From assembly GCF_002849715.1 (NCBI RefSeq), contig NZ_CP018863.1, forward strand, positions 682,001 through 746,000: a DNA stretch of 64,000 nt, written 5' to 3'. The position numbers and the translations under genes are program-made. This stretch comes from Arthrobacter crystallopoietes (GTDB lineage Bacteria; Actinomycetota; Actinomycetes; Actinomycetales; Micrococcaceae). Of the stretch, positions 11,443-43,226 are shown in pieces. Every line of letters begins with the position of its first letter. Position 1 is the first letter of the stretch. The notes beneath the pieces were generated by a model that saw only the letters and a program-made list of their open reading frames with translations, made no database searches and was not told the DNA's origin.

Positions 11443-11642
11443 CCTCCCCGCTCTGTATTGGACCTGAGAGATTCCGCGGAAACTTTTCCAAGTTCCGCTT
11501 GCACCGTCGGTGAGCCGAGCCGTTAAGGTCGACTGCTTTCCAGAGTTGCCTGTCTGCGGCGGTACAGGGGCCTGAGAGATTCCTGGGGAGGTATTGCTCC
11601 TACGGCGCCCGCTGACATTCATCCAGCAGGACTCTCCCGCCG
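11443..11642 (-). promoter_or_regulatory. Tandem glycine riboswitch (two aptamers)
   Basis: On the minus strand two glycine aptamers stand in a row. Aptamer I (about 11541-11642) begins GGCGGGAGAG and contains GGGCGCCGTAGGAGCAA, AATCTCTCAGGCCCCTGTAC and the closing AACTCTGG. Aptamer II (about 11443-11537) contains CACCGACGGTGCAAGCGG and AATCTCTCAGGTCCAATAC. These are the conserved blocks of the gcvT-motif RNA. About 50 bases then separate it from the gcvP ATG. AGGAAC at its 3' edge (11440-11445) can pair with GTTCCT next to the gcvP ribosome site (11395-11400), so glycine binding would be expected to free translation; this last point is inference. Confidence 0.93.
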
Positions 11643-11669
11643 CAATTCGAAGGCATTATGCAGTTATGA

Positions 11670-27636: not shown

Positions 27637-28497
27637 CTACTGGTCGAGGATGACCTCGGATGCTTCGGTGGACCGGTCCGTCACGGTAGTGGGCGCTTCC
27701 AGATGCACCGCGCCGGAGGGCAGGATCCCCGCCCCGCCGTAGCGCTCCATGACCCGCAGTTGCGCGACCACGTCTTCACCGGCATGGGCGGCCGGCAGCT
27801 CCTTCCAGAACTCGAAGCCGCCGCACTCAACCAGCTTGTCGCGGTCGTAAAGCACGCAGCCGCCCACCCAGGCCACCTTGTACAGCCGCCATCCGCCGTC
27901 GGGAATCTCCAAAGACCGGGCGATGTGGGTCAGGTTCGCCGCGTTGTGCAGCGTCCAGCGGGCGAACCGTTCATCCGTCCGGCGCACGCGCTCCGGCTCG
28001 ACGGCCCCCTCCCATAGTTCAAAGGGCTCCTGCTCCTGGGGCCGCTCGTCGTCCAGGTAGGACAGCCCCTGGACGGCGGCGCCGATGAACCCGCAGCCCG
28101 CCTCGCGGATGGCCGCGTGCATCCGTGCCAGCATGCCCGGCTCCAGCCAGATGTCATTGTCCAGGAACAGCACCAGCGGCGCGTTGGCAAGGCCCAACAG
28201 GAAATCGCGCTGCTCCGCCATGCCCTGCCTGGGCAGATGCCGCTCGAGCCTGACCTTCCGGCCCTGGGCCCGGAGTACCCGGACCATTGCGGCGACCGCC
28301 GGATGCTCCCAGGTGGGGTCGCCGTCGGTCTGGTCGCTGATGGTCACCGAGAACGCGGGCCCGTCCTGGGCGGCGAGTCCGGACAGCGTCACGGCCAGTT
28401 CCGCCTCGCGTCCGTAGGTGGGGATCAGTACGTCCACCTCGGCCGGCGGCTCCTCGGGCACCGGGAGCGCCCACTGCCCCGAGTGCCTGCGCGTCAT
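27637..28497 (-). CDS. Family 2 glycosyltransferase
   Basis: A 286-residue GT-A-fold enzyme. EVDVLIPTYGREAELAVTL opens the nucleotide-sugar domain, LVLFLDNDIWLEPG holds the metal-binding acidic motif near residue 115, and AGEDVVAQLRVMERYG holds the late ED catalytic motif. No membrane segment is seen, so it acts in the cytosol. Its ATG overlaps the stop of the hldE-like gene (ATGA), making it the last of a three-gene operon (aldehyde dehydrogenase, hldE1, GT2) in the heptose/glycan cluster. Donor and acceptor are unknown. Confidence 0.9.
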   Translation of the reverse strand: MTRRHSGQWALPVPEEPPAEVDVLIPTYGREAELAVTLSGLAAQDGPAFSVTISDQTDGDPTWEHPAVAAMVRVLRAQGRKVRLERHLPRQGMAEQRDFLLGLANAPLVLFLDNDIWLEPGMLARMHAAIREAGCGFIGAAVQGLSYLDDERPQEQEPFELWEGAVEPERVRRTDERFARWTLHNAANLTHIARSLEIPDGGWRLYKVAWVGGCVLYDRDKLVECGGFEFWKELPAAHAGEDVVAQLRVMERYGGAGILPSGAVHLEAPTTVTDRSTEASEVILDQ

Positions 28498-30143
28498 GCC
28501 CGATCCGCCTCTTCGGCCACGGGTCCGGCCGCAGCGGTGCCCGTAGCCGTGCCCGTTGCGGGGCCGCCTGCCGTGGCCGCGTGGGTTCCCGCGCCTGCAG
28601 CCGTGCCGGTGCCCGTAGCCGCATCTGTGATTGCGGCTTTGGCCGGGGCCTCGGCTGTACCCGCACCCGCGCCGGTACCGCGGATGCGCCGCACTACCGC
28701 CGTCGTCGAATGTTCGGAGACATAGTCCAGGATGCTCACCTGTCCCCCGTACGCTTCGACCGCGGGCGTTTCCTCCAGCATCTGCGGCGAATAGTCCCCG
28801 CCCTTGGCATAGATGTCCGGTTTGACGGCCTCGATCAGCGGGATGGGGGTGTCCGTGTCGAACACGGTGACATAGTCCACGCAGCTGAGCGCCGCGATGA
28901 TGCCCGCGCGGTCCCCCACCGGATTGATCGGCCGGTCCGGGCCCTTGAGCCGGCGGGCGGATTCGTCGCTGTTCAGCGCGACCACGAGCACGTCGCCGAG
29001 CTGTTTGGCCTGGTTCAGGTAGCGCGTGTGTCCGCGGTGCAGCACGTCGAAGCAGCCGTTGGTCAGCACGATCCGCCGCCCCGCTGCCCGTTCGTCGCCG
29101 AGCCGCCGGGCCAGTTCCGCCGCGTCCAGCGCGGTGTCGCTGAAGCTGCCCAGGTGTCCGGCCAGATCCGCCGTAGTACAGACCGAAGTGCCGGGGCGGT
29201 GGACAACGACGTCGGCAGCGGCCTGCGCAAGATCCAGACAGGTGGTCAGCTGCAGGCCTGCCGCCCGCGCGAGCGTCAGGCAAGCGACAAAGGTGTCCCC
29301 CGCGCCGGATGCCTGCTTTTCGGTAACGGGACGCGCCCACGTGCGGTGCGTGCCGCCGTCGTTGTTGAGCAAAACGGTCCCGTCCCGGTCCAGGGTAACG
29401 ACGGCGGAGCGGGCACCTGCCGCTTCGAGCAACTGCCCGCCGCTCGCGGCGACCAGCCCCGCCCGGTCCGAGTCCGGTTCGAAGGCGATGCCGAGGAGCC
29501 CGGCGGCCTCGCCCGCATTGGGCGTGACCAGATCCGGCTGCACCTGCGCCCAGGGCCGCGGATCATGCGCGTCTACCACCGTCAGGCGGTCGCCGCGGTG
29601 GGCCGCCAGGGTTTCGCGCACCGCGCCGCCGAGGGCTCCGGAGCCGTAGTCGCAGACCACCACAGCGGCACTGGCCAGCAGCGCCTGCGGCACCGCGGCG
29701 GCGAGCTGTTCCACGGCGTCCGCCGGCATCCGCTGCGTCTGTTCGTCCATCCGCAGCATGATCTGGTCCCCGCCGATCACGCGGTACTTGGTGGTCGTGA
29801 CGACCTGAGGATGCTCGATGAGACCGGAGACGTCCACGCCGGCGCCGGCCAGCAGTTCGCGCAGGCGGCCTCCGGCCTCGTCGCTGCCGGTGAGCCCGAG
29901 GATCCGCACCCGCGCACCGAGCGCGGCAAGGTTCATGGCGGTGTTGGCGGCGCCGCCGGGGGCATACTCGCGCCGGGCCATGTCCACCACGGGAGCCGGC
30001 GCCTCGCGGCAGAAGCGCTCGATCCGGCCGGTGAACCAGCCGTCCAGCATCACGTCGCCGAGCACGGTGATCTGCGGGGCGGCCTCTGCCAAGCGCTGCG
30101 GCAGCCAGTCCGCGAGTCCGGAAATGCCTTCCAGCGAGCTCAT
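28494..30143 (-). CDS. Bifunctional heptose kinase/nucleotidyltransferase, HldE-like (copy 1)
   Basis: A 549-residue fusion. Residues 20-325 are a PfkB-family sugar kinase (VLGDVMLDGWFTGRIERF, GGAANTAMNLAALGARV, catalytic ASGAGDTF) and residues 355-490 a nucleotidyltransferase with LTNGCFDVLHRGHTRYLNQA and RRLKGPDRPINP. In HldE the kinase makes heptose-1,7-bisphosphate and the transferase makes ADP-heptose after GmhB. A tail of about 55 residues made almost wholly of Ala, Gly and Thr (GTGTAAGAGTHAATAG) is unusual. ATGA overlaps join it to the aldehyde dehydrogenase and GT2 genes. The sugar may be D,D-heptose; not proven. Confidence 0.9.
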   Translation of the reverse strand: MSSLEGISGLADWLPQRLAEAAPQITVLGDVMLDGWFTGRIERFCREAPAPVVDMARREYAPGGAANTAMNLAALGARVRILGLTGSDEAGGRLRELLAGAGVDVSGLIEHPQVVTTTKYRVIGGDQIMLRMDEQTQRMPADAVEQLAAAVPQALLASAAVVVCDYGSGALGGAVRETLAAHRGDRLTVVDAHDPRPWAQVQPDLVTPNAGEAAGLLGIAFEPDSDRAGLVAASGGQLLEAAGARSAVVTLDRDGTVLLNNDGGTHRTWARPVTEKQASGAGDTFVACLTLARAAGLQLTTCLDLAQAAADVVVHRPGTSVCTTADLAGHLGSFSDTALDAAELARRLGDERAAGRRIVLTNGCFDVLHRGHTRYLNQAKQLGDVLVVALNSDESARRLKGPDRPINPVGDRAGIIAALSCVDYVTVFDTDTPIPLIEAVKPDIYAKGGDYSPQMLEETPAVEAYGGQVSILDYVSEHSTTAVVRRIRGTGAGAGTAEAPAKAAITDAATGTGTAAGAGTHAATAGGPATGTATGTAAAGPVAEEADRA

Positions 30144-31555
30144 CGCCTCACCCCACCCGGCAGGCCGACATGGACCACCTTGACCTGGGTGAATTCGTCC
30201 AGCAGTTCCGGACCGTAGCCGAAACCGTGGCCACTGTCCTTGCGCGGCTGGGCCGAGCCACCCGGAGCGCCGCCGAAGACGGCGTTGATCTTGACCGTGC
30301 CGACCGGCAGCGCTGCCACCGCCTGCTGGGCATGCGCCATGTCGGCCGTCAGGACGGTGGCGGCCAGGCCATACCGTCCGGCGGCCGCGAGCTGCAGCCC
30401 GTCCTCGAAACTGTCCACCACCGTCACCGGTGCCACCGGCCCGAAGGTCTCCTCGGTCATGATGGTCATGTCCTCGGTGCAGCCGAGCAGCACGGTGGCC
30501 GGGTAGTGCGCGCCCGGCCCCTCGGGCGGTTCACCGCCTTCCGTGGCCTTCGCACCGGCGGCCACTGCCTGGGCAACCTGGGCATGGACTTCATCGCGCA
30601 GCCTGGTATCCACCAGCGGCGCAAACTGCTGGCTGGTGTTGCGTCTGCGGGCCTCCTCGGCGAGCGCGTTGCAGAAGGCGTCGGCGATGTCGCGGTGCAC
30701 GTAGATCCGTTCCACCGAGGTGCAGATCTGGCCGCTGTTGGCGAACGCCCCGATCGCCGCCTGCTCCGCCGCCCACTCCGGGTCCACGCCGGCGTCCACC
30801 AGCAGCGGGTCGTTGCCGCCGTTTTCGCGGATGACATGCGCTCCGGTCAGCGCCGCCGCCTGCGCGATCCTCGTCCCGGTGGCACTGGAGCCGACATGGG
30901 CGAAAACGTCAACGCCGGGATGGCTGGTCAGCGCCGAGCCCACCTGTGGTCCGCCGTTGAGCGTGATCAGGACATCCGGCGGCAGCACCGCGGCCAGCAC
31001 CTCCCCGAGTGCCGCGCCCAGGTGCGGGCAGCGCTCGCTCGGCTTGTGCACCACAGTGTTGCCGGTGACCAGGGCGGCGCCCAGCAGGCCCGCGGCGACG
31101 GCGACCGGATCGTTCCACGGGGTCAGCAGGACCGCGACGCCGCGCGGTTCGGCCACGGTGTAGTCGGCGGCCATTTTCGAACCGCGCAGGCTCAGCCCGC
31201 GGTGCACCGGGGCCAGTTCCGCGTACTGCCGCAGCGTTGCCGCGCCGGCTTTGACACCTTCCAGGGCTTCGGCTTCCGGCCGGCCGGTTTCGCGCGCGTT
31301 CAGCTGCGCCAGCCGTTCGGCGTTGTCGTTCAGCGCGGCAGCAGCCGCGTGCAGCAGTTCGCCGCGGGCCGCCGGGTCCACGCCTGCCCAGCCCTGCTGC
31401 GCGGCGCGGGCTGCGGCAACCGCCTGGTCCACGTCCGCGGGGCCGGCCTGCGGCACGCTGCCCACCAAGCTCCCGTCGCGCGGATCGTGAATGGTGATGG
31501 CCGCGTCGGCTGCTGCTTTTTCCTGCTGCAGTACTGTCTCGGAACCGGTTGTCAT
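30140..31555 (-). CDS. Aldehyde dehydrogenase family protein in glycan operon
   Basis: A 471-residue NAD(P)-dependent aldehyde dehydrogenase. The nucleophile is in FANSGQICTSVERIYVHRD, the general-base Glu in VIRENGGNDPLLVD (Asn replaces the usual Leu), and LLTPWNDPVAVAAGL and TEETFGPVAPV are typical. AAAAGGAGCGAT sets the start at 31555; the frame continues to 32452 only as the shadow of an opposite gene. It leads a three-gene operon with hldE1 and GT2. Its substrate could be a sugar aldehyde or a glycan precursor, but nothing in the sequence proves it. Confidence 0.92.
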   Translation of the reverse strand: MTTGSETVLQQEKAAADAAITIHDPRDGSLVGSVPQAGPADVDQAVAAARAAQQGWAGVDPAARGELLHAAAAALNDNAERLAQLNARETGRPEAEALEGVKAGAATLRQYAELAPVHRGLSLRGSKMAADYTVAEPRGVAVLLTPWNDPVAVAAGLLGAALVTGNTVVHKPSERCPHLGAALGEVLAAVLPPDVLITLNGGPQVGSALTSHPGVDVFAHVGSSATGTRIAQAAALTGAHVIRENGGNDPLLVDAGVDPEWAAEQAAIGAFANSGQICTSVERIYVHRDIADAFCNALAEEARRRNTSQQFAPLVDTRLRDEVHAQVAQAVAAGAKATEGGEPPEGPGAHYPATVLLGCTEDMTIMTEETFGPVAPVTVVDSFEDGLQLAAAGRYGLAATVLTADMAHAQQAVAALPVGTVKINAVFGGAPGGSAQPRKDSGHGFGYGPELLDEFTQVKVVHVGLPGGVRR

Positions 31556-31759
31556 ATCGCTCCTTTTCCAGATCGGCCCGGCCGCACACCAAAGTGCCGG
31601 CCGGACAAAGCGTTCTGCTTCACTCCGTACCCCGTTGCCTGCCCATTCAGACACGGAGGATCCAACCTCTTTGAAGCACTGGTCAGCGGCGCGGAAGCGC
31701 TTTAGTGTGAAGCTCAGAACAGCTACTGCCGCTGCCCGCCGGCGAAGATGGAGGTACAC
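31556..31759. promoter_or_regulatory. Divergent promoter region inside the heptose cluster
   Basis: A 204-bp region between the divergent aldehyde dehydrogenase and GT9 genes. It must hold the promoters of both units. No clear operator; GGAGGTACAC at its right end is the GT9 ribosome site. I could not place -35/-10 boxes reliably. Confidence 0.4.
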
Positions 31760-32959
31760 ATGGAACAGGAAATCGACGTCGACGAGGTGGCCACCGGCGG
31801 AGCGGACTTCGGCGGCGAGCGGCTCGATGCAACGGCGGGGCAGGGCCTCGTCGGCCCGCTGCTGGGACGGTTCGAGGATGTCAAGAAGATTGCGGTGCTG
31901 CGCGGCGGCGGGCTCGGCGACCTGATGTTCGCCGTGCCGGCCATGCAGTCGCTGGCCGCGGCGTATCCGGAAGCAACCATCACGCTGCTCGGGGCGCCGC
32001 TGCATGCCGCGCTGCTGGGCGGCCGGCCGGGTCCGGTGGACCGGGTGGAGGTGCTGCCCTATGCGGAGGGCGTGCGGCCGGGACCCGAGGATCCCGCGGT
32101 GGTGGAAGAGTTCCTGGCCCGGATGCGGGCAGAGCGCTTCGATCTCGCCGTCCAACTGCACGGCGGCGGGCGCTTTTCCAACCCGTTCCTGCTCCGGCTT
32201 GAAGCCCGGCACACCGTGGGCACCCGGACCGAGGACGCCGCGGCGCTGGAACGGACCGTCCCGTACCTCTATTACCAGCACGAAGTGCTCCGCGCGCTCG
32301 AAGTGGTGGGTCTGGCCGGCGCGGCGCCGGTGGCCCTGCAGCCCCAGCTGGCGGTCCTGCCCGAGGAAGAGGCGGCAGCTGCCGGCCTGCTGGACGCCGG
32401 CCGGCCCTCCCTGGTGACCATCCACCCCGGTGCCTCCGACCAGCGGCGGCAATGGCCGCCGTCGTACTTTGCGCAGGTCGCCGCCTGGGCGGCGCAGGAT
32501 GGCTGCCAGGTCCTCCTGGTCGGGGGCCCGGAGGATGTGGATTTGGCAGACAACGTGGTTTCCCAGGCGCAGGAATTAATGCACGACGCCGGCAGCATCC
32601 GTTCCGTGGCCGGGCAGTTGGGGCTCGGGGAACTGGCCGCGTTGCTGCGCGCGAGCGACGTCATGCTCGGAAACGACAGCGGACCGCGGCATCTGGCCCA
32701 GGCCGTGGGCACGCCCACCGTCGGGATCTACTGGGCCGGGAACCTGATTATGGCCGGCGCGCTGGGACGGACCGTGCACCGGGTCCACATGTCCTGGATG
32801 ACGCACTGCCCGGTCTGCGGATCCGATCTGACGCAGGTCGGCTGGACCGCCGAGCGCTGCGAACACGAGTTTCCGCTGACCGAGCAGATACGCCCCGAAG
32901 ACGTCTACTCGGACGTCCGCCAGCTTAGGGCCACGAGTCTTCTTCTTCGTGGCAAATAA
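31760..32959 (+). CDS. Family 9 glycosyltransferase (heptosyltransferase type) with Cys cluster
   Basis: A 399-residue GT-B enzyme. The N-terminal half has KKIAVLRGGGLGDLMFAVPA and the C-terminal half LVTIHPGASDQRRQWPP and MLGNDSGPRHLAQAVGTPTVGIYW, the donor-binding hallmark of ADP-heptose transferases. Near the C-terminus are Cys pairs CPVCGSD and RCEHEF that could bind zinc, uncommon in the family. The ATG at 31760 follows GGAGGTACAC. It is divergent from the aldehyde dehydrogenase and overlaps the tail of the SDR gene by 35 bases on the other strand. Confidence 0.92.
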   Translation: MEQEIDVDEVATGGADFGGERLDATAGQGLVGPLLGRFEDVKKIAVLRGGGLGDLMFAVPAMQSLAAAYPEATITLLGAPLHAALLGGRPGPVDRVEVLPYAEGVRPGPEDPAVVEEFLARMRAERFDLAVQLHGGGRFSNPFLLRLEARHTVGTRTEDAAALERTVPYLYYQHEVLRALEVVGLAGAAPVALQPQLAVLPEEEAAAAGLLDAGRPSLVTIHPGASDQRRQWPPSYFAQVAAWAAQDGCQVLLVGGPEDVDLADNVVSQAQELMHDAGSIRSVAGQLGLGELAALLRASDVMLGNDSGPRHLAQAVGTPTVGIYWAGNLIMAGALGRTVHRVHMSWMTHCPVCGSDLTQVGWTAERCEHEFPLTEQIRPEDVYSDVRQLRATSLLLRGK

Positions 32960-33644
32960 CCATCTCGCGCACCTCGCAGCCCTTCGGCTGTGAGAGTGCG
33001 AACAGGATGGCCTCGGCCACCCGCTCAGGATCGTTGAGCCGGGAATCGTCCTGCGGCTTATACTGCTCCGTCCGGTCGTCGAAGAACCGGGTCTTCATGC
33101 CGGCCGGAATCATGGTGGTGACGCCGATCTGCCCGCGGGTCTCCGCCGCGAGCGCGCGGCTGAAGCCGACGACGCCGAACTTGGAGGCGCAGTAGGCGGT
33201 TGCGTCGGATACAGCCTTGATGCCCAGCGACGAAGCGACTGTGATGACCCGCCCGTGCGAAGCCGTCAGGTAAGGCAGTGCGGCGCGGACCACCGAGACC
33301 GTGCCCATCAGGTTCACGCCGATCACCTTGTCCCATTCGTCCGCCGGGACGTCTTCCAGCCGGCCGCAGCGGTCGATACCTGCCGCGGTGACCACGGCGT
33401 CCAGCCCGTCCAGAGTTTCCGCCGCCTGCTGCACCGCCGCGGTGACGGCCTCGCGGTCGGAGACATCGACTTCCAGGCACTTCACGCCGGAGACACGGCT
33501 GACGTCACGGTCCAGCACCACCGGGGTGCCGCCGGCCTCGCGGACCGCTTCGACGACAGCGGCGCCGAGGCCGGAGCCGCCGCCGGTGACCAGAACTCGA
33601 CCGGGATTGTAGGGGGTCGTAGGCGTGGATCCTGCTGATTTCAT
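32925..33644 (-). CDS. SDR family oxidoreductase of the glycan operon
   Basis: A 239-residue classical short-chain dehydrogenase: VLVTGGGSGLGAAVVEAV, a partially altered NNAG motif (VVTAAGIDR), catalytic Ser in VASSLGIKAV, and YCASK. It is too short and of the wrong type to be HldD, the extended-SDR epimerase of ADP-heptose. It is the last gene of the seven-gene minus-strand operon, 35 bp after hldE2, with AGGAGGAACAG before the ATG. It may modify a sugar or an unrelated metabolite. Its end overlaps the end of the convergent GT9 gene. Confidence 0.9.
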   Translation of the reverse strand: MKSAGSTPTTPYNPGRVLVTGGGSGLGAAVVEAVREAGGTPVVLDRDVSRVSGVKCLEVDVSDREAVTAAVQQAAETLDGLDAVVTAAGIDRCGRLEDVPADEWDKVIGVNLMGTVSVVRAALPYLTASHGRVITVASSLGIKAVSDATAYCASKFGVVGFSRALAAETRGQIGVTTMIPAGMKTRFFDDRTEQYKPQDDSRLNDPERVAEAILFALSQPKGCEVREMVICHEEEDSWP

Positions 33645-33679
33645 CTGTTCCTCCTAATGGACGTGGATGGTCTTGTTGG

Positions 33680-35059
33680 CTAGCCGACCTTGGCCAGCGC
33701 GGCGGCCAGCCGGGTGGTGGAGCGGGCCGGATGGTAGGGAACCGTCACGGCCCGTCCGCCCCAGGTCTGCAGCAGCGCGGCTTCGGGCAACTGGTCCGCC
33801 GTGTAGTCCCCGCCCTTGACCCAAAGGTCCGGCCGCAGCTGTTCCAGTGCCGCCTCCGGCGTCTGCTCGTCGAAGACCAGCACCGCGTCCACGCACTCCA
33901 GCGAGAGCAGCAGTTCGGCGCGGTCCTGCTGGCCCATGATGGGGCGGTCTTCGCCTTTGAGCCGCGTAACCGAGGCGTCGGAGTTGAGACAGACGATCAG
34001 GCAGTCGCCCAGTCCGCGGGCCGCGGCCAGCGTCCGGGCGTGGCCGGCGTGCAGCAGGTCAAAGCAGCCGCCGGTCGCCACCACGGTGCCGCCGGCTTCC
34101 CGGGTCTGCCGGGCCACCCGCAGCGCATCCACGCCGCCGCCGTGCAGCTGTTCCGGCGCGGCTTCTTCGCGCAGGCTGGCCACCCCGCCGGCGGCGAGGA
34201 ATGCGGCCGCTTGTTGCACGGCGCCTTCGGCCGCGGCCTGCAGCGGCTGCCCGCCCATCAGCCCGACGGCGAGCGCGCCGGCAAAGCGGTCACCGGCGCC
34301 GCAGGGGTCCCCCGCCTGCACCTTGGGTGCCGGGATGACCTGCGGCAGGCCGTCATCGGCCAGGACCAGCGCGCCGGCGCCGCCGAGCGTGACGATCACC
34401 GAGCCGCACTGCCAGGCACGGCGCAGTTCCTCCGCGGCCAAGGCAGCTTCGCGCGCACCGCCGTCCTGCTTCGCGGAAAGCCCGGCTGCCCGGATCGACT
34501 CCGGCAGGTTGGGCGTGACCGCGGTGACGCCGGGTACCGGAATGCTTCCGGAAGGATGCGGGTCCCAGACCACGGGTATCCTGCCGGCCAGTTCCTGCAG
34601 GAGTCCGCGCAGCCGTATATTCGCGGCCAGACCCCGCCCATAATCCGCCACGACTACGGCGTCGGCCTGTTCGAGGGCGGCGAGCATAGCGTCGGTCACG
34701 CCGGGGATCTTCACCTCGCCGCACCCCTCGTCGAACCGGACAACGCACTGGCCGGCGGCCCGGATCCGGGTCTTCACCGGCGTGGGCACACCGGAGGGAC
34801 CGGCAATGACTTCTATCCCTTCGAGGGCGCCGCGCAGCTGACCGGAGGCGCCGTCGTCGGACAGCACGGTGACCAGCCGGACGGCATGCCCGTCGCGCTC
34901 CAGCATCCGCGCCACCAGCCCGGCGCCGCCGGCCCGGTAGTCCGTCTCCGCCACATCCACCACCGGCACCGGCGCATCCGGGGAAAGCCTGCTGGCGTCG
35001 CCGTGCACATCGGCGTCGAGCAGCACATCGCCCACCACCACAATGTTCTTCGGGCTCAT
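33680..35059 (-). CDS. Bifunctional heptose kinase/nucleotidyltransferase, HldE-like (copy 2)
   Basis: A 459-residue fusion with the same order as copy 1. The PfkB kinase has VVGDVLLDADVHGDASRL, PDAPVPVVDV and catalytic DPCGAGDRF; the nucleotidyltransferase has TGGCFDLLHAGHARTLAAAR and TRLKGEDRPIMG. The kinase half departs more from HldE (AGGAGLVARML where copy 1 has GGAANTAMNL), so its specificity may differ. The size equals classical HldE. It starts with an ATGA overlap on gmhA. Presence next to gmhA and gmhB argues for nucleotide-heptose synthesis. Confidence 0.9.
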   Translation of the reverse strand: MSPKNIVVVGDVLLDADVHGDASRLSPDAPVPVVDVAETDYRAGGAGLVARMLERDGHAVRLVTVLSDDGASGQLRGALEGIEVIAGPSGVPTPVKTRIRAAGQCVVRFDEGCGEVKIPGVTDAMLAALEQADAVVVADYGRGLAANIRLRGLLQELAGRIPVVWDPHPSGSIPVPGVTAVTPNLPESIRAAGLSAKQDGGAREAALAAEELRRAWQCGSVIVTLGGAGALVLADDGLPQVIPAPKVQAGDPCGAGDRFAGALAVGLMGGQPLQAAAEGAVQQAAAFLAAGGVASLREEAAPEQLHGGGVDALRVARQTREAGGTVVATGGCFDLLHAGHARTLAAARGLGDCLIVCLNSDASVTRLKGEDRPIMGQQDRAELLLSLECVDAVLVFDEQTPEAALEQLRPDLWVKGGDYTADQLPEAALLQTWGGRAVTVPYHPARSTTRLAAALAKVG

Positions 35060-35865
35060 GGACGCCCCCTTCTATCCGTACTGCGCGGACTGGCCGTGCG
35101 GCCCGAGCCTGCCGGGATCGTTCCGGCCGCGGCTTCGGCCGCCCGGCGGCGGGACACCTCGGCGTCGAACGCCCGGCAGATGGCATGCAGGGCCATCAGG
35201 TGGCCCTCCTGCACATTGGCCGGCAGCGCATCGATGGCGATGTAGTCGTCGCAGATCCTGGTCAGCGGGTTCGGGGCGCTGCCGGTCAGCGCCCAGGTGG
35301 TCACGCCCAGGCTGCGGGCGGCCTCCACGGCGTTGAGCAGGTTGGCGCTCTTGCCGCTGGTGGTCAGCAGGACCAGCACGTCCCCCTCGCGCCCGTGGCC
35401 CCGGACCTGCCGGGCGAACAGCTGGTCGAAGCCGTAGTCGTTGCCGATGGCGGTCACGGCGGAGGTCTCCGCATGCAGCGAGATGGCCGAGAACGCCTCC
35501 CGCTCGCCGTCGAACCGGCCCACCAGCTCTGCCGTTAGGTGCTGTGCCTCCGCGGCGGATCCGCCGTTGCCGGCCGCCAGCAGCCGTTGCCCGCCGAGCA
35601 GCCGGTCCGCCAGGTCGATGCCCCAGGCCGCGAGCTGCGGCGCCTGGCTGCGCAGCGAATCGACGGCCGGAGCCACCTGCCCCAAATGCGCCAGCACCGC
35701 GTCCAGGCCCTCAACCGTTTCCTCGCCGGCGCCGTCCTGGCGCCCGGGGCCGGGAACAGTGGAAGGCACGACGGCGGGACTCGGCACCGGGACAAGGGCG
35801 GGCCCCTGCGGCCGGACGTAGGTTTCCGGCTCCGTCTGGGTGGTGGTGATCGATACTGGTCTCAC
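35056..35865 (-). CDS. gmhA: SIS-domain sedoheptulose-7-phosphate isomerase-like
   Basis: A 269-residue protein from the GTG at 35865 (AAGGGGAAGCACT upstream). About 60 Pro/Thr-rich residues precede the SIS domain. The phosphosugar isomerase core has [37 protein letters not shown] and [15 protein letters not shown], as in GmhA, which converts sedoheptulose-7-phosphate to D-glycero-D-manno-heptose-7-phosphate; catalytic Glu/His positions (AEAQH and [10 protein letters not shown]) are kept. GTGA and ATGA overlaps couple it to the GT4 gene before and hldE2 after. A DiaA-type role is less likely in this context. Confidence 0.9.
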
Positions 35866-37124
35866 AGTGCTTCCCCTTCCAGCTGGCGCAGCGCCCCGCT
35901 CAGGGCACCGGAGTTCCGGGCCAGGTTGTAGGCCTTTTCGGTATCGGCGGCCACGCGGTCCCAGGAGTAACGGGTGCGGACCCGTTTCCGGCCGGCCCGG
36001 CCCAGCTCCTGGGCCAGTTGCGGATCCCGCAGCAGCTCCGCCAGTGCGCAGGCCACCGCTTCGGGGTCCTTCGGCGGCACCTGCAGACCGGTCTTGCGGT
36101 CCACCACCGTGTCGATCAGACCGCCCACGGAAGCGGCGACCACCGGAACGCCGCAGGCCATGGCTTCCAGCGGCACAATGCCGAACGGTTCGTACCACGG
36201 CACGCAAACGACGGCGTCGGCGCTGCGCAGCACGGTGGGGATCTTGTCCTGCGGGATCTGGCCGCGCAGCACCACCTGGTCCGCGACACCGAGCTCGCCG
36301 GCCAGCTCCATCAAACGCCGCGCTTCGGGGTCCCCTCCCAGCCCGTCCGGTCCGGAAGCTCCGCCGACCACCAGCAGTTCGACGTCGTCAATCCCCTGGT
36401 CTTTCAGCAGCCGCAACGCGCGGACCACCAGGTCAACACCCTTGCGCGGCACCAGCCGGCCCACGCTCATGATCCGGTGGCGGCGGCCACGCGGCTCGAC
36501 CTCGCCGGTGGCCCCGAACAGCTCCAGATCCACGCCGCAGGGGGCAATGGAGATGTTGCTCCGGGGCACGCCCATGGCGGTCAGCTCGAAAACCTCGTCG
36601 GAGCAGGTGGCGATGATGCGGTCCACGTTGCGTCCCACGGAGGGCTCCAGCCACGCGCGCTGGGCGGGGCTGGTGTCCTGCACGCCCTGGTGCCGGCGCT
36701 TGACCGTGCCGAGGGCGTGGAAAGTCTGCAGCACGGGCACCGGGTAACCGGAACCGTAGTTGCGCCGGGCGGCGTCGAGGGCGGCGACGCCGGACATCCA
36801 GAAATGGCCGTGGACGATATCCGGCGGGTTGCAGTCCCAGTCCGCGGAGATTCCGTCCGCCAGCTGGCCCATGAACGGCAGCAGCTCGTCCTTGGACACC
36901 GGCTCGGGCGGCCCGGCGTCAATATGGACCACTTCCACGCCGGGCCGCATCCGCACGCGTGTGGGCAGGGCGCCATTGTCCCGCCGGGTATAAACGGTGA
37001 CGGAGTGCCCGCGCTTGGCCAGGGAGGCCGAAAGGGCGGCGACGTGCACGTTCTGGCCGCCGGCGTCCACTCCTCCCAGTACGGCCAGCGGGCTGGCGTG
37101 TTCGGAAACCATGGAAATCCTCAC
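35862..37124 (-). CDS. Family 4 glycosyltransferase
   Basis: A 420-residue GT-B enzyme of the GT4 type: [20 protein letters not shown] at the N-terminus (as in sucrose-phosphate-synthase-like and MshA-like enzymes), [20 protein letters not shown] in the donor domain, and the E-x7-E motif in [16 protein letters not shown]. It begins with GTG at 37124 (AGAGGAGAGCT upstream), four bases overlapping the preceding glycosyltransferase. It is cytosolic and likely transfers a hexose from a nucleotide sugar to the cluster's glycan; acceptor unknown. Confidence 0.93.
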
Positions 37125-38125
37125 AGCTCTCTCCTCTCGTTCGCTGCAATAACCCTGCCGGCGTGTGTCCTTGTTTCGGCCAGGACCGCGTCCCAGTTGT
37201 CCAGGAAGGCGGCCAGTCCGTGCCGCTGCAGCACGGTTTCGCGTGCCACTGCGCCGCGGGCGCGAGCCTCCTCGGGTTCCTGCACCAGCCGCGCCGCTTC
37301 CCGGCGCAGCTCGTCCACATTCGTGGAGATGGCGCCGGCTTCCGGCGGAACCGCACGGGCTGCTTCGGTGGTGGCCAGCGCGATGACCGGCATGCCCAGG
37401 TGCATGGCTTCCAGCAGGGCCAGGCCCAGCGAGGTCCAGCGCAGCGGATGCACGTACGCGCGGCAGCGAGCCAGTTCGGCATGCAGCAGCTTGCCCGGCA
37501 GGTCGCCGCGGACGGTCAGCTGGTCAGGCCCCAGCCCGGTGGCGGAGGCGAGTTCGTCCGTGCCCATGCCGAAGACTTCCAGATGGCCGGCCAGCGCGAA
37601 TTCGGGCAGCAGGTCCGTGCCGGTCACCCGCCAGCGGCGGACGGGTTCGTTGACCACCACGGCCAGATGGTCCAGCTCGCCGGTATAGAGGTGGCCGGGG
37701 TCCACAACACCGTGTTCGATCACCGTGGTGGGCGCGTTGCCGCAGTCCCAGAAGAGCCGGTTGAAGTGGGTCACGTGCACCACCGGAATGGCTTGCTGGT
37801 CTGCCAGCGGGTGCAGCGAGTTGGGCACATCGCCCTTGGGCGTGTTGTGCTCGAGGAAGACCGCGGGAATATCGCGGCCCGGGCGCCTTCCCAGCAGCCG
37901 CTCGCATTCGGCCAGTTCCTCCGGCCGCTGCAGCACCACGACGTCGATATCCTCCTCGCGCAGGTCCTCCGGCGCGACGTCGCGAACGTTGTCGGGCCAA
38001 TCGCGGCCGGCCCGGCCTAGGCCCCAGGGTCCGCCGTCGGGCGTTGCGGGCAGCAGGTATTCGTGGCGGCCGCGCACAAACGCGTCGGTCCAGCCGCCGT
38101 GGACGTGCCAGAGCAGTATCTTCAT
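37121..38125 (-). CDS. GT4-like glycosyltransferase (divergent)
   Basis: A 334-residue protein with a short N-terminal Rossmann half starting [19 protein letters not shown], the middle segment [16 protein letters not shown], and a donor half ending in the GT4-like block [20 protein letters not shown] with the E-x7-E-type acidic pair partly replaced. It resembles actinobacterial DUF1972/GT1-like transferases of unknown specificity. The start at 38125 has GAGGAACGC and overlaps the previous stop (ATGA). Part of the seven-gene operon. Confidence 0.82.
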
Positions 38126-39189
38126 GCGTTCCTCGTCTCTCTGCGGGTGGGCAAGGACGTAACTCCGGTGGTCAGCCGCTGCACGGCCGCCACCACTTCT
38201 TCGGGTTCGACGCCGGACAGGCAGGGGTGGCCGGGCACCGGGCAGACGCGGGCGCGGCTGAGCCGGCACGGCGCGTTCTGGTCCCCCAGCAGTTCCAGCG
38301 GCACTTTGTACGGCGCCCAGCGCACGGCCGGAACCACCGGGGCGAAAAGGCTGACCACGGGAGTTCCGACGGCGGCCGCCAGATGCGCGGGACCGGTATT
38401 GCCGGTTACGACGGCGGAAGCACCTGCCAGCACGCCCGCCAGGCTGTGCAGGTCCGTCCGGCCGCCCAGGTCCAACCCGTCCGGGCCCGCCACCGTCGCG
38501 GTCAGTTCCGCCTCCGCGGGACCGCCGGTGACCACCACGCGGTAGCCGGCGGCGATGAGCAGTTCCACTGCGGCCGCATGGTGCAGCGGCGGCCAGGCCC
38601 TCGCGGGGACGGCCGCGCCGGGATGGACGGCGACGTACGGTTCGGTGCCAGCCAGCCAGCCGACGTCCGGAACGTCGCGCACGCGCAGCCGCCCGTCGTC
38701 GTTAGCCGGCAGACGGTAGCCCGCCGCCGCGGCGATCTGCAGGGCGCGCTCGGCCTCCGGCTGGTCTTCAGGAAAGTCTTCACCCGGCTTGAGCCGCATA
38801 TCCAGCAGCGAACCGGCATAGTCGGTGGACGCCGCGGTAATCCGTTCCACCCCGGCCAGCCGCAGCAGCATGGCCAGCGGCAGCGGGGACTGGTGGAACG
38901 ACGTCAGGATCACGGCCTCTTCAATCCGGCGGCCGCGCACCCAATCGCACAGCGCGGCGATATGGTCCTCGGTGACCGGCGGCGCCGGATCCACGATCCA
39001 CGGACTGGCCCAGGTGAACACGTCGGCAACGCCGGGCAGCAGCTGTGCCGCTGCGGTCCCCTGCGGCCCGCACAACATCAGGACCTCGTTGGGCCGACCG
39101 GCTCTGCCCGCGGCGACGGCACGGACGGCGGGACCGGCGAGCAGCACGTCCCCCGCGCTGTCCAGCCTGGCTACCAGCACCCGGCTCAT
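38122..39189 (-). CDS. Family 9 glycosyltransferase (heptosyltransferase type)
   Basis: A 355-residue GT-B enzyme: VLVARLDSAGDVLLAGPAVR at the N-terminus, VAVHPGAAVPARAWPPLHH in the middle, and VTGNTGPAHLAAAVGTPVVS in the donor site, matching ADP-heptose:acceptor heptosyltransferases. A late Cys pair (RVCPVPGHPCLSG) parallels the Cys-rich end of some lipopolysaccharide heptosyltransferases. ATGA overlaps on both sides bind it tightly between gmhB and the GT4-like gene, so its donor is most likely the heptose made by this cluster. Confidence 0.93.
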   Translation of the reverse strand: MSRVLVARLDSAGDVLLAGPAVRAVAAGRAGRPNEVLMLCGPQGTAAAQLLPGVADVFTWASPWIVDPAPPVTEDHIAALCDWVRGRRIEEAVILTSFHQSPLPLAMLLRLAGVERITAASTDYAGSLLDMRLKPGEDFPEDQPEAERALQIAAAAGYRLPANDDGRLRVRDVPDVGWLAGTEPYVAVHPGAAVPARAWPPLHHAAAVELLIAAGYRVVVTGGPAEAELTATVAGPDGLDLGGRTDLHSLAGVLAGASAVVTGNTGPAHLAAAVGTPVVSLFAPVVPAVRWAPYKVPLELLGDQNAPCRLSRARVCPVPGHPCLSGVEPEEVVAAVQRLTTGVTSLPTRRETRNA

Positions 39190-39791
39190 AGGCTGCCCCG
39201 CACCACGTCGGCGTCCCGGGTCCGGCCAGCTTCGCTGAGTTCACGGTCCGGCAGCCAGCCGGTTCCCAGCAGCAGCTCTAAGGCAGCGGCCAGATCCGGC
39301 GCGACCAGCTCCGCCGCGCCGACCTCCTCGGCACGTGTCACCGGGGTCGGCACCAGCACACCGGTTGCTCCGGCTGCGGCCGCCGCCTCGACGTCGGCAC
39401 CGATGTCGCCGATGAAGGCGACTTCGGACGGCTGCAGGCCGAGCCGGCAGCAGGCGCTGAGGATCATTCCCGGCGCCGGCTTCCGGCACCCGCAGCCGTC
39501 CATCGGTCCATGCGGGCAGACTTCCCAGAGGTCGAACGGACCCAGCAGTTCCTCGACCCGGGCGTTGACTGCGTCCACCTGCGGGCGCTGCAGCAGACCG
39601 CGGGCAATGCCCGATTGGTTGGTCAGCACGCCGCAGCGCAGTCCGGCGCGGCGAACCGCATTAAGGGCCTCGGCGGCGCCAGGCATCGGCCGGACCAGTT
39701 GCGGGTCCGCGTTGTACGGAACGTCCACCACCAGCGTGCCGTCCCGGTCGAAGAGGACGGCCTGCGGCGGATCAATAACGTGGCGACTCAT
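39186..39791 (-). CDS. gmhB: HAD-IIIA phosphatase, heptose-1,7-bisphosphate phosphatase-like
   Basis: A 201-residue HAD-IIIA phosphatase. The catalytic AVLFDRDGTLVVDVPYN near residue 11, GVLTNQSGIARG, a GmhB-type zinc site (CPHGPMDGCGCRKP) and AFIGDIGADVEAA make GmhB the best match: removal of the C7 phosphate of D-glycero-D-manno-heptose-1,7-bisphosphate. It is the first gene of the seven-gene operon, so the promoter should lie between 39792 and 39938. Only a weak ribosome site (GCTGG) precedes the ATG. Confidence 0.93.
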   Translation of the reverse strand: MSRHVIDPPQAVLFDRDGTLVVDVPYNADPQLVRPMPGAAEALNAVRRAGLRCGVLTNQSGIARGLLQRPQVDAVNARVEELLGPFDLWEVCPHGPMDGCGCRKPAPGMILSACCRLGLQPSEVAFIGDIGADVEAAAAAGATGVLVPTPVTRAEEVGAAELVAPDLAAALELLLGTGWLPDRELSEAGRTRDADVVRGSL

Positions 39792-39938
39792 ACCAGCACT
39801 GTTCCCGTAGAAGCAGCGGCCTAAACACTTCCGCTGCTACTTCTTTTACTTCTTCTCCCGCTTGCCCCGCTCCTGCCGGTCCGGCCGCGGCATGTGGCAC
39901 CATAAAACGAAGACCGATCGGAAGGACTCTGCACCACC
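39792..39938. promoter_or_regulatory. Divergent promoter region with hairpin, head of heptose operon
   Basis: This 147-bp region separates gmhB (minus) from a GT9 gene (plus). It contains GCAGCGG (39813-39819) and CCGCTGC (39831-39837), a 7-bp stem with an 11-base loop, followed by a pyrimidine-rich stretch. The hairpin lies in the leader of gmhB. GGAAGGACTC near 39930 is the GT9 ribosome site. No regulator gene is nearby. Confidence 0.4.
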
Positions 39939-40895
39939 ATGGAGCAATTGATGCGGGACGGACTGGAGCCCGATGGCAGGCCGGAACTGCTGGTGCTGCG
40001 CGCCTTGAAGCTCGGCGACCTGCTGGTTGCGGTGCCCGCGCTGCATGCCCTGCGGCGGGCCTACCCGGAGCACCGCATCATCTACGCCGCCCAGGGCTGG
40101 CTCCGTCCGATGATCGAACTGGTCGGATCCGTGGATGACCTGCTGGATACGCACGGCCTGGACGTTCCGTTGGCGCTCTCCCCGGGACGGGTGGACGTTG
40201 CTGTGAACCTGCATGGCAGCGGACCCGAAAGCCACGGCCGGATTAGGGCCTTGCAGGCCAAACGGATCATTGGCCATCTGTCGGAGGAGTGGGATGGTCC
40301 GTGCTGGCAGGACGGCGTCCACGAACGCGAGCGCTGGGCAAGACTCGTCCACTGGCATGGCATCGACGCCGACCCGCTCGACTACCGGCTGCAGCCACCG
40401 GCGGTTGCCAGCCCCCGGCCCGGTGCCGTGGTCATCCACGTGGGCGCCGCCTACGGCAGCCGGCTCTGGCCGGTCGATCGCTTTGCCGAAGTTGCGCGGG
40501 AACTGGCCGCCGCCGGGCATGAGGTGCTCTTTACCGGCAGCAGCGGCGAGCGGCCGCGCGCCGAAAAGGTGGCAGCCGCCGCCGGCCTCCCCGCCGAAAC
40601 CGTGGTGGCGGGCGAGCTGGGGCTGGGTGAATTCGCGGCGGCCGTCGCGGAAGCGTCACTGGTCATTTCGGCAGATACTGGAGCCGCCCATCTCGCCTCC
40701 GCGTACGGCCGTCCCTCCGTGGTGATCTTCGGGCCGGCCCCGGTAGCCGAATGGGGTCCGCCGCCCGGACCGCACATCGTGCTGACCAACGAATCGCTTC
40801 GCGTCGGGGACACCTTTTCGGACCAGCCGGACCCCGCGCTCCTGGCGGTCAGCGTGCAGGACGTGCTGTCCGCGGTGTCCCGGTTGGGCATTTAG
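39939..40895 (+). CDS. Family 9 glycosyltransferase (heptosyltransferase type), third copy
   Basis: A 318-residue GT-B enzyme: LLVLRALKLGDLLVAVPALH near the N-terminus, AVVIHVGAAYGSRLWPVDRF in the middle and VISADTGAAHLASAYGRPSV in the donor site. It lacks the Cys pairs of the other two GT9 enzymes. It is divergent from gmhB and closes the cluster, converging with the sigma factor gene. In enteric bacteria successive GT9 enzymes add successive heptoses; three copies here suggest an oligo-heptose or varied linkages, which is inference. Confidence 0.92.
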   Translation: MEQLMRDGLEPDGRPELLVLRALKLGDLLVAVPALHALRRAYPEHRIIYAAQGWLRPMIELVGSVDDLLDTHGLDVPLALSPGRVDVAVNLHGSGPESHGRIRALQAKRIIGHLSEEWDGPCWQDGVHERERWARLVHWHGIDADPLDYRLQPPAVASPRPGAVVIHVGAAYGSRLWPVDRFAEVARELAAAGHEVLFTGSSGERPRAEKVAAAAGLPAETVVAGELGLGEFAAAVAEASLVISADTGAAHLASAYGRPSVVIFGPAPVAEWGPPPGPHIVLTNESLRVGDTFSDQPDPALLAVSVQDVLSAVSRLGI

Positions 40896-40952: not shown

Positions 40953-41729
40953 CTAGGCAGTGCGCACGCTGGCGCCGTTGTCGGCGTCGTGGTCTTCCAG
41001 CAACTGGCGCTGCAGCTTCACCAGGATCCGGGCCAGCGCACGGGAGACCTGCATCTGCGTCATGCCGACCCGCTCGCCGACCCGCTGCTGGGATTCCTCC
41101 TCGAAGTACCGGTAGTACAGCAGCTGCTGCTCGCGCCGGCTGAGCTCGCGGATGGCGCCGCGCAGCATGAGCCGCTCCTCCGCCTTGTCCAGCCTGTTGT
41201 CCGCGCCTCCCAGCAAGTCAGCCAGGTTCCGGCCGTCGGTATCCGCTTCCAGCGATTCCGGCCGAAGGCTGCTCTGGCAGTTCAGGGCCTCGGCTACCGA
41301 TTCCAGGCTCTCGCCCAGTTCGTCCGCCAGCTCTGATAGAAAAGGGTCCCGGCCCAGCCGCTGGGCCAGGGCCGGCCCGGCTTTGGCCACCGCTGTGCGC
41401 AGGTCCTGGATATGACGCGGCGGCCGGATCACCCAGCAGCTGTCCCGCAAGTACCGTTTGAGTTCGCCGGTCACCGTGGGCATCGCATAAGCAGGAAAAT
41501 CCGTCCCGCGTTCAGGATCGAAGCCCCGTACTGCCTTGAGCAGCCCCATCCGCGCAACCTGCTTCAGGTCATCAAGCTCGCGGCCCGTTCCCACGTAGTT
41601 CCGCGCGGCCGTTTCCGCGATGTCCAGGTGTCCCAGCACCAATTCCTCTTCAAGCGCCCGGCGCAGCGAGCCCTTTGCCCGTCGCGCCTGGCGAAAGAGT
41701 ACCTTGTTGTTGCTGGTGGCAAGCTGCAT
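40953..41729 (-). CDS. SigB/SigF-type RNA polymerase sigma factor
   Basis: A 258-residue sigma-70 factor of group 3. Region 2 includes DDLKQVARMGLLKAVRGFDP and FPAYAMPTVTGELKRYLRDS (the -10 melting and recognition area); region 3 follows (RLGRDPFLSELADELGES) and region 4 ends with an HTH (QRVGERVGMTQMQVSRALAR). This family runs general stress or sporulation programmes and is controlled by anti-sigma and anti-anti-sigma partners; a STAS gene lies just upstream on the same strand. AGGAGAG stands about eleven bases before the ATG. Confidence 0.93.
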   Translation of the reverse strand: MQLATSNNKVLFRQARRAKGSLRRALEEELVLGHLDIAETAARNYVGTGRELDDLKQVARMGLLKAVRGFDPERGTDFPAYAMPTVTGELKRYLRDSCWVIRPPRHIQDLRTAVAKAGPALAQRLGRDPFLSELADELGESLESVAEALNCQSSLRPESLEADTDGRNLADLLGGADNRLDKAEERLMLRGAIRELSRREQQLLYYRYFEEESQQRVGERVGMTQMQVSRALARILVKLQRQLLEDHDADNGASVRTA

Positions 41730-41886: not shown

Positions 41887-42276
41887 TCAGGCGCTGTGCA
41901 GGCGGAGCGGCCGGGAGGCGTAGGCATCAGCGCCCGCCTGCACCCTGTCCATCCGGCAGGCCGGGGAAAGCTTCGGCAGCAGCAACACAACGACGCCGAT
42001 ACCCGCCAGCACACAGCGCACCTCGGAATAAATGGCCGTCGCGCTGGTGCTCGCGGGTCCGGGCAGGTAGCCAAGCATCTCGAGAGCCTCGACCTCAACG
42101 TGCCGCGCCTCCCGCAGATCCAGCGTGACGGAGACGTCCGCCGCCAGGGAGCGCGCCCGCTTCAGGACGCAGAGCAAAGCCTGGCAACTGGTGGCAGTCA
42201 GACAACCCCGGACATCGATCCGCGCGGATTTCAGATCGGCATCAAAACCGACAACGAGCTGCAGTTTGTGATCCAT
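41887..42276 (-). CDS. STAS-domain (anti-anti-sigma-like) protein
   Basis: A 129-residue STAS-fold protein (QLVVGFDADLKSARIDVRG, then CQALLCVLKRARSLAADVSV and VTLDLREARHVEVEALEML). The usual phosphorylatable D-S-S/T-G motif is not clear; the region reads EARHVEVEAL. A C-terminal stretch (VRCVLAGIGVVVLLLP) is unusually hydrophobic. It lies upstream of the sigma factor on the same strand with a 157-bp gap, so it could act in the same stress pathway. Loss of the phosphosite would make it an unregulated or divergent member. Confidence 0.7.
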   Translation of the reverse strand: MDHKLQLVVGFDADLKSARIDVRGCLTATSCQALLCVLKRARSLAADVSVTLDLREARHVEVEALEMLGYLPGPASTSATAIYSEVRCVLAGIGVVVLLLPKLSPACRMDRVQAGADAYASRPLRLHSA

Positions 42277-42363: not shown

Positions 42364-42723
42364 TCAGTCGCCGGAGCGCTCGGCTGCCGCTTCGGCCTTC
42401 GGCTGTCTGGAATCGACGACCTTCAACCCGATCACGCAGCCGATGATCCCGACGAGGAAAAGAACCTTCAGCAACCCAGCGGACTCACCGGTAAAGGCCA
42501 CCGCATAGGCGACGGTCAGCACCGCCCCGGCTCCTGTCCAGACGGCATAGGCCGTGCCGATCGGAATTCCCCGCATGGCATAGCCCAGACCCACCATGCT
42601 CAGGGACAGGGCGATAAAGAAAAGCACTGTCGGTCCTGGCCGCGACAGCCCCTCCGACGCGCCGAGGGCGGTTGCCCAGACGGCTTCCAGTACGGCACTG
42701 ATAAGCAAGACGGTCCAAAACAT
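42364..42723 (-). CDS. SMR family exporter, guanidinium (Gdx) type, second subunit
   Basis: A 119-residue four-helix small multidrug resistance protein: the TM1 Glu in LISAVLEAVWATALGASEG, then GTAYAVWTGAGAVLTV in TM3, the signature of the SugE/Gdx branch rather than EmrE. It follows its partner gene by three bases, and paired SMR genes normally form a heterodimeric exporter. A guanidine-III riboswitch upstream of the pair supports guanidinium export. The C-terminal tail (SRQPKAEAAAERSGD) is soluble. Confidence 0.93.
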   Translation of the reverse strand: MFWTVLLISAVLEAVWATALGASEGLSRPGPTVLFFIALSLSMVGLGYAMRGIPIGTAYAVWTGAGAVLTVAYAVAFTGESAGLLKVLFLVGIIGCVIGLKVVDSRQPKAEAAAERSGD

Positions 42724-42726
42724 GGC

Positions 42727-43041
42727 TCAACCCACCGCCTTCAGGCCTACCACGCAGCCGATTATGCCCACCAGCAGCAGCACCTTCGCCCACGAAACCG
42801 CCTCGCCGCCAAAGGCCATCGAGTAGGCGGCCGTGAGCACAGCACCCACGCCAACCCAGACGGCGTAAGCGGTGCCGACCGGGATCGCCGTCATCGCGTA
42901 GGCCAGGCCGGCCATGCTGACGATCATCGCCACGAAAAACGTGACCGTTGGCCACAGCCGGCGGAAGTTCCTGGACGCGCCCAGCGCCGTCGCCCACACC
43001 GCTTCCAGCACACCGGACAGGATCAGTATTATCCATTCCAT
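42727..43041 (-). CDS. SMR family exporter, guanidinium (Gdx) type, first subunit
   Basis: A 104-residue four-helix exporter beginning MEWIILILSGVLEAVWATAL with the essential TM1 Glu, and GTAYAVWVGVGAVLTAAYS in TM3. It is the first gene after the guanidine-III riboswitch; AAGGA between the aptamer and the ATG is its ribosome site, so the switch probably controls translation. Expected role: proton-coupled efflux of guanidinium. Confidence 0.94.
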   Translation of the reverse strand: MEWIILILSGVLEAVWATALGASRNFRRLWPTVTFFVAMIVSMAGLAYAMTAIPVGTAYAVWVGVGAVLTAAYSMAFGGEAVSWAKVLLLVGIIGCVVGLKAVG

Positions 43042-43055
43042 CGGAAATCCTTTGG

Positions 43056-43094
43056 CCAGTCTTGTCGCTCACCGGGTACTGATCCGTCGTCCGG
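43056..43094 (-). promoter_or_regulatory. Guanidine-III riboswitch (ykkC-III)
   Basis: The minus strand reads CCGGACGACGGATC, then AGTACCCGGTGAGC, then GACAAGACTGG. The conserved blocks CCGGACGA, GTACCCGGT and GACAAGAC in this order and spacing match the compact pseudoknot of the guanidine-III class. It lies 15 bp before the first SMR gene, with the AAGGA ribosome site immediately downstream, fitting translational activation by guanidinium. Confidence 0.9.
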
Positions 43095-43226
43095 AGACCT
43101 GCGGTTTCGAGGTCTTGCTACGAAGATATCAACGTACGACGGCGGCGGCTGGGTTTGGTTGCCAATGTCACCACCAGAAGCGCCCCACCGCGCCCGAAGG
43201 AGCGGCCCGCGTGGCACGATGGACAA

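Follow-up and report, generated by a model that had tools for sequence, protein, structure and literature searches.

The 64-kb stretch of Arthrobacter crystallopoietes DNA analyzed here (contig NZ_CP018863.1, positions 682,001 to 746,000; referred to below as the window) has a GC content of 66%, belongs to a genome of 5.03 Mb, and carries at positions 27637-40895 a cluster of 12 genes whose products belong to families of nucleotide-heptose synthesis and sugar transfer, the best named match being Arthrobacter sp. SF27. Gene families were called with Pfam and NCBIfam profiles, and gene starts were chosen individually, several of the mechanically predicted open reading frames (ORFs) being over-extended. 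The genes are listed below, together with their counterparts in the cwg operon of Streptomyces coelicolor, which is considered further on; percent identities are to the genes in the corresponding places of a Streptomyces record (L159).

27637-28497, minus strand: GT2 glycosyltransferase, last gene of operon 2 (Pfam, NCBIfam)
28494-30143, minus strand: HldE-A, kinase/nucleotidyltransferase fusion, middle gene of operon 2 (Pfam, NCBIfam, tree)
30140-31555, minus strand: aldehyde dehydrogenase (ALDH), first gene of operon 2 (Pfam, NCBIfam)
31748-32959, plus strand: GT9a, second-module member of the heptosyltransferase family, opposite in strand to the operons (Pfam, NCBIfam)
32925-33644, minus strand: SDR oxidoreductase, last gene of operon 1, Tyr151 and Lys155 conserved (Pfam)
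33680-35059, minus strand: HldE-B, kinase/nucleotidyltransferase fusion, counterpart of cwgI
35056-35865, minus strand: GmhA-like sedoheptulose-7-phosphate isomerase (SIS), counterpart of cwgH
35862-37124, minus strand: GT4, MshA-like glycosyltransferase, counterpart of cwgG (52% identity)
37121-38125, minus strand: GT4b, strongly conserved GT4-like transferase, counterpart of cwgF (56% identity)
38122-39189, minus strand: GT9b, heptosyltransferase-family enzyme, counterpart of cwgE
39186-39791, minus strand: GmhB-like phosphatase (HAD-IIIA), opens operon 1 and corresponds to cwgD (53% identity)
39939-40895, plus strand: GT9c, heptosyltransferase-family enzyme, divergent from operon 1, inverted counterpart of cwgJ

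Both operons lie on the minus strand, operon 1 in the order gmhB, GT9b, GT4b, GT4, gmhA, hldE-B, SDR and operon 2 in the order ALDH, hldE-A, GT2, and GT9a and GT9c are single plus-strand genes that diverge from ALDH and gmhB, respectively, the genes heading the two operons. The original prediction for this locus had named the same families, and all of them were recovered in place (GmhA, GmhB, two HldE, three GT9, two GT4, GT2, SDR, and ALDH), but it had counted 13 proteins where 12 genes are present. It had also described the genes as joined mostly by 4-bp overlaps, which was found at seven of the eight junctions within the two operons, with a 35-bp gap between HldE-B and SDR at the remaining one. 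Its description of the cluster as complete-looking holds for the steps leading to nucleotide-heptose and fails for a finished envelope polymer: no flippase, polymerase, ligase, export, or scaffold-building gene was found among the 12, and none of the 12 proteins shows a hydropathy peak typical of a membrane span, no peak exceeding 1.9.

The isomerase, kinase, phosphatase, and nucleotidyltransferase families of the ADP-D,D-heptose pathway are all present with their active-site residues. The nearest solved structures of GmhA are phosphoheptose isomerases, those of both HldE proteins are 5x9q (a putative cytidylyltransferase) and 4e84 (a D-beta-D-heptose-7-phosphate kinase), and the structurally solved relatives of GmhB include D,D-heptose-bisphosphate phosphatases. 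The residues scored for conservation, which we take to have the expected active-site roles, were at least 95% conserved over 35-118 rows per gene in the eight genes tested, a set outside HldE and the GT4 genes, and for GmhB they comprise the DxD motif and the Cys/His ligands (at least 95% in 114 rows). GAGD and HxGH are retained in HldE-A and HldE-B of the window, and the D-S/T-G motif has its Asp in GT9a and GT9c. The nucleotidyltransferase domain of HldE-A passes the NCBIfam equivalog cut-off (192.4 versus 181.5 bits), and that of HldE-B, at 179.3 bits, lies 2.2 bits under it. Since no HldD 6-epimerase scored over its cut-off in the genome (best hit 97.1 versus 274.6 bits), the D,D form should be the donor.

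Heptose is a sugar familiar above all as part of the outer coat of Gram-negative bacteria. No match to LpxC was obtained in the genome, whereas the control genomes of E. coli, Caulobacter, Synechococcus, and Bacteroides did match, and the sugar must thus go elsewhere than into lipopolysaccharide (LPS). LPS proper was rejected as the product on the lack of LpxC and of an HldD over the cut-off in this genome, which bears out the earlier proposal that a Gram-positive cell without LPS has to use the heptose in some other way.

The two HldE proteins differ at the position preceding the STT motif, where an Arg has been tied to the use of ATP, CTP, and UTP (PMC11573728). In HldE-B the residue is Arg in 103 of the 113 regions in which the pattern was found (123 regions in all), and in HldE-A it is His in 32, Arg in 22, and another residue in 11 of 65 (77 regions in all). 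The full published motif (F/L)XXGRSTT does not occur in the window, HldE-B reading YHPARSTT and HldE-A YVSEHSTT. These residues offer only a suggestion that the two enzymes may differ in the nucleotide they use.

The original prediction knew of no named product for this gene order, and in this respect it has to be corrected, because the core has a homologue in S. coelicolor, the operon named cwg ("putative cell wall glycan"), with seven of 12 genes in common and six of them in order. The 12-gene cwg operon (SCO6179-SCO6190) is partly sigmaE-dependent and vancomycin-inducible, and its promoter has been printed (PMC6767563); CwgE has already been called a putative heptosyl transferase (PMC5882110), and no description of the cwg product was found in the available portions of the literature searched. 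When the cwg promoter was searched for in 392 genomes of one genus (that of genome G246, taken as Streptomyces), nine genomes carried it within three mismatches, one of them exactly (G783), and three of the nine promoter-bearing loci were examined. In the first (L173, genome G783), the promoter is followed by genes for an epimerase, a carbamoyltransferase, a glycosyltransferase (GT), HAD, GT9, GT4-like, GT4, SIS, HldE, GT9, GT, and GT, and the most upstream of six candidate starts of the first gene lies 147 bp from the promoter site, the distance printed in PMC6767563; L173 presumably comes from S. coelicolor or close kin.

A Streptomyces record (L159) that matches L173 in all 12 places was used as annotated query, and seven of its 12 cwg-type genes matched the window in the expected places with 44-59% identity (E 1e-4); in the comparison with L173, the window counterparts showed 45-59% identity. 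The gene types of cwgD to cwgI (HAD, GT9, GT4-like, GT4, SIS, HldE) are contiguous, in the same order, and on one strand in the window. The SDR gene had no match in the cwg-type operon of L173. The operons of the Streptomyces relatives include a carbamoyltransferase and an epimerase gene, which hint at a decorated sugar.

In L174 (genome G673, from position 2078), a cwg-type sigmaE promoter with one mismatch precedes only two cwg-type glycosyltransferase genes, and no heptose genes matched in the 18 kb examined; at L175, the third promoter-bearing locus examined, none of the cwg gene types matched. The query record L159 is itself a large plasmid, of Streptomyces sp. CA-256286, on which the cwg-type cluster stands among GAF-ANTAR, STAS, CsbD, and SigB-type genes, and a large plasmid of S. 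fungicidicus (L157) carries a shortened cwg-type cluster.

Synteny across actinobacteria was examined on named loci chosen for carrying GT4b (the best 80 of 567). Of the 73 with enough flanking sequence, 69 have the six-gene core gmhB-GT9b-GT4b-GT4-gmhA-hldE-B collinear on a single strand, which is more than chance. The loci include Micrococcaceae, Microbacteriaceae, Brevibacterium, Micromonosporaceae, Pseudonocardiaceae, Streptomyces, Nocardiopsis, and Planobispora, the core order being broken in the last (L153). A GT4b query from Streptomyces megasporus matched 30 of 296 genomes drawn over the phylum (E 1e-30), and the gene is thus wide but patchy.

The genes for HldE-A, GT2, GT9a, and ALDH constitute a second heptose module, of which no description was found in the literature searched (one library). 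Of 70 named loci, 50 have HldE-A in their right flank, and in two genomes (G204 and G279) HldE-A and GT2 lie far from the core or on another contig, which indicates that the modules can be separated. An unrooted tree of 65 HldE rows, with 15 forks open and one row pair on a very long branch, sets HldE-A apart as an old clade of its own: all 38 HldE-B rows fall on one side of a 100/100 branch and 21 HldE-A rows lie behind a 99/87 branch; between the two groups sit the HldE proteins of Klebsiella and Paludisphaera and six rows labelled A merely because HldE-A was the better BLAST query. HldE-B stands on a long branch of 1.1 changes per column. A recent tandem duplication of hldE was considered and is not supported, HldE-A and HldE-B falling in separate clades of this unrooted tree.

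Two features next to gmhB bear on how operon 1 might be switched on.

39801-39826, minus strand: promoter-like motif GTTTAG-N14-GGGAAC, ending 9 bases ahead of the ATG of gmhB
40953-41729, minus strand: SigB/SigF/SigG-type sigma factor gene, whose product is proposed to read the motif (Pfam passes for regions 2, 3, and 4)

The best-scoring family of the sigma factor is TIGR02980 (216.7 bits, cut-off 234.35). We take the SigB/F-type consensus to be GTTT...GGGTAT, and the assignment of the motif to this type presumes that consensus; a search of the window for the textbook form GTTT-N13-17-GGGTA gave no match. That form was loosened after the sequence had been read, and the final form, GTTTA-N14/15-GGGNA, was fixed on the same loci, so that the following counts are not blind. 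This form stands just upstream of gmhB in 55 of 75 named loci (29 of the 75 are from Arthrobacter), the loci being related and the events not independent, and in 72 of 114 loci when further genomes are counted, a set holding some genomes twice (L055 and L144, for example, are identical in the HldE tree) and therefore less clean than the 75. Shuffles of the looser motif form gave 1.1, and permuted blocks, wrong spacers, and reversed order gave 0 to 2. At 12 other mapped gene starts, which are best tblastn matches and may belong to a paralogue, the motif was present in none of the 20-123 loci each, except for 1 of 107 at the SDR gene, and 72 of its 89 occurrences in 2.50 Mb stand at gmhB. The distance of 9 bases between motif end and ATG recurs in many other rows, which suggests a nearly leaderless gmhB message. 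The motif at gmhB was not found described in the literature searched (one library). A sigmaE-type pattern upstream of gmhB occurs at chance level (1 of 114 loci, shuffled mean 1.05), and in four Streptomyces records the region preceding the epimerase gene held no strict sigmaE-type site and one unconvincing loose match.

Most likely, the motif is read by the neighboring SigB/F-type factor, to judge from where motif and gene occur. Counted by genus group, the motif is present in 14 of 24, namely in 10 of the 12 with such a sigma gene within 4.5 kb and in 4 of the 12 without. It is possible, albeit on the doubtful side, that the motif does act as a promoter but for a different sigma factor, the sigma gene lying nearby for other reasons, as might be expected from the eight of eight Micromonospora loci that have the motif without such a gene within 4.5 kb and from Goodfellowiella and Frigoribacterium, which have the gene without the motif. 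However, motif and sigma gene mostly come and go together in Micrococcales, and the next match to the sigma gene in the genome is only 28% identical. A gene for a BrkB-type membrane protein (window 43793-44878, plus strand) also recurs near the cluster, and in seven Micromonospora loci (L128, L129, L131, L140, L142, L145, and L147) it has a GTTT-N-GGGTA site of its own (7 of 17 BrkB starts). A STAS-like reading of the ORF at 41887-42276 was not borne out by Pfam.

On the whole, we lean modestly towards the view that the locus makes a stress-linked envelope glycan or glycolipid based on ADP-D,D-heptose, begun in the cytoplasm. GmhA would convert sedoheptulose-7-phosphate to heptose-7-phosphate, the kinase domain of HldE would make the 1,7-bisphosphate, GmhB would then remove the 7-phosphate, and the nucleotidyltransferase domain of HldE would yield a nucleotide-heptose remaining in the D,D form. 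An acceptor would be primed by the two GT4 enzymes and receive heptose from the GT9 enzymes, as putative heptosyltransferases, and the second module (HldE-A, GT2, GT9a, and ALDH) may draw on the same pool of heptose-7-phosphate to add another branch or decoration. Transcription of operon 1 would start from the GTTTA-N14/15-GGGNA promoter, most likely through the neighboring SigB/F-type sigma factor. A stress response in this organism may be presumed from relatives: cwgA rose with salt in S. coelicolor (PMC13011467), and a heptosyltransferase unique to salt-tolerant Frankia, which may or may not be of this cluster type, also rose with salt (PMC5563000).

Several observations weigh against this reading. 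GmhA, GmhB, and the GT9 enzymes score well below the NCBIfam equivalog cut-offs (GmhB reaches 112.5 bits against NF006506, cut-off 178), the HldE kinase domains are under theirs too, and with most cut-offs missed the heptose-enzyme names rest on family plus context; moreover, where the D-S/T-G motif normally has its Asp, a conserved Asn (264) is found in GT9b. Five of the 12 cwg-type genes (epimerase, carbamoyltransferase, and the glycosyltransferases of places 3, 11, and 12) have no match in the 64 kb, the 12 genes include none for a membrane protein, polymerase, or ligase, and the envelope location depends on the cwg name, called putative by its own authors. As to stress, sigE itself was not raised by salt (PMC13011467), and SCO6185 (cwgG) was among the most stable transcripts over conditions and was chosen as reference gene (PMC4630627), which speaks against strong inducibility. 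Genome-wide, the 12-base GTTTAG-N13/14-GGGAAC occurs twice (at the locus and inside another reading frame) versus once for the backward control, and the 10-base GTTT-N15/16-GGGAAC 14 times versus 21; rarity alone thus proves nothing, and the meaning of the motif comes from its place and conservation.

One alternative, which we consider rather unlikely, is that the product is a heptose glycoside kept in the cytoplasm or at the inner face of the membrane, solute-like or inositol-linked, and not a wall component. The salt induction of relatives (PMC5563000, PMC13011467) would suit such a molecule. So would the lack of membrane spans and of an export gene noted above, and one of the GT4 enzymes is MshA-like (245.7 bits against TIGR03449, cut-off 462.5), of a family that glycosylates inositol phosphate. 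On the other hand, GT9 enzymes are known mainly from surface glycans. The cwg operon of the relatives is, furthermore, controlled by the envelope-stress factor sigmaE and induced by vancomycin (PMC6767563). It is improbable that the enzymes act on another sugar phosphate, such as one of the mannose type, and bear heptose names inherited from distant relatives. The scores under the equivalog cut-offs and the long HldE-B branch would fit this possibility, as would the reported synthesis of ADP-mannose by E. coli HldE in vitro (PMC10948575), but GmhA-, GmhB-, and HldE-type genes stand together in one operon in the 69 of 73 syntenic loci with their catalytic residues kept, and the gene set fits the heptose route and no other known to us. 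A heptose-bearing secondary metabolite of the septacidin or hygromycin type, one of the options originally listed, is very improbable: actinobacteria do use nucleotide-heptose for such products, but the core is conserved in synteny over many actinobacterial families and no scaffold-building or export gene is among the 12. A possible natural-product cluster with heptose lies on plasmid pFRL3 of Streptomyces sp. FR1 (L160, 5043-16189), where a 656-amino-acid protein named rfaE2 is encoded next to genes of the radical SAM, P450, GT9, and carbamoyltransferase types.

A bolder form of the envelope glycan reading would see in the locus a Gram-positive counterpart of the LPS inner core, with two nucleotide-heptose supplies (HldE-B with Arg and HldE-A mostly with His before STT) and a largely dedicated SigB/F-type sigma factor replacing sigmaE in Micrococcales. 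We regard it as speculative and rather improbable, its standing being lowered by the genome-wide control counts, which weaken the claim of a dedicated sigma factor.

Elsewhere in the window, a guanidine-III riboswitch (43051-43118, minus strand) lies just before two small ORFs (42727-43041 and 42364-42723) that resemble, by eye only, paired SMR exporters, and tandem glycine riboswitch aptamers occupy 11443-11649 (minus strand). A relative of Rv2629-type ribosome hibernation factors (194 bits, cut-off 320) is encoded at 22482-23612 (minus strand), downstream of the cluster.

The envelope glycan reading joins the cwg operon, an envelope-stress target, with the nucleotide-heptose pathway, a link for which the available portions of the literature searched gave no precedent except the remark on CwgE (PMC5882110). 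On this reading, heptose should be present in the envelopes of actinobacteria over a wide though scattered range, and the locus offers a putative promoter and a candidate sigma factor for turning the glycan on. Products of the nucleotide-heptose pathway are sensed by vertebrates through ALPK1 (PMC11573728).

Compared with known systems, the locus shares GmhA, GmhB, HldE, and GT9 families with the LPS inner-core ADP-heptose pathway (GmhA, HldE, GmhB, HldD, and WaaC/WaaF), but it has no HldD over the cut-off, no LpxC, two HldE proteins of separate clades, and GT4 and GT2 partners. With the actinobacterial tridomain NDP-heptose synthetases (Tang et al. 2022) it has the isomerase, kinase, and nucleotidyltransferase functions in common, whereas here the fusion of isomerase to kinase/nucleotidyltransferase is absent: the isomerase is a separate gene (35056-35865) overlapping hldE-B (33680-35059) by 4 bp, and HldE is present as two didomain proteins. 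The closest system is the cwg operon, with which the window shares seven gene types, of which the first six stand side by side with order and orientation unchanged, and from which it differs by an added SDR gene, an inverted second GT9 gene, an added second HldE module, and a promoter that is not of the sigmaE type. The core of the locus is thus that of the known cwg operon, and what sets it apart is the extra heptose module and, probably, a different on-switch.

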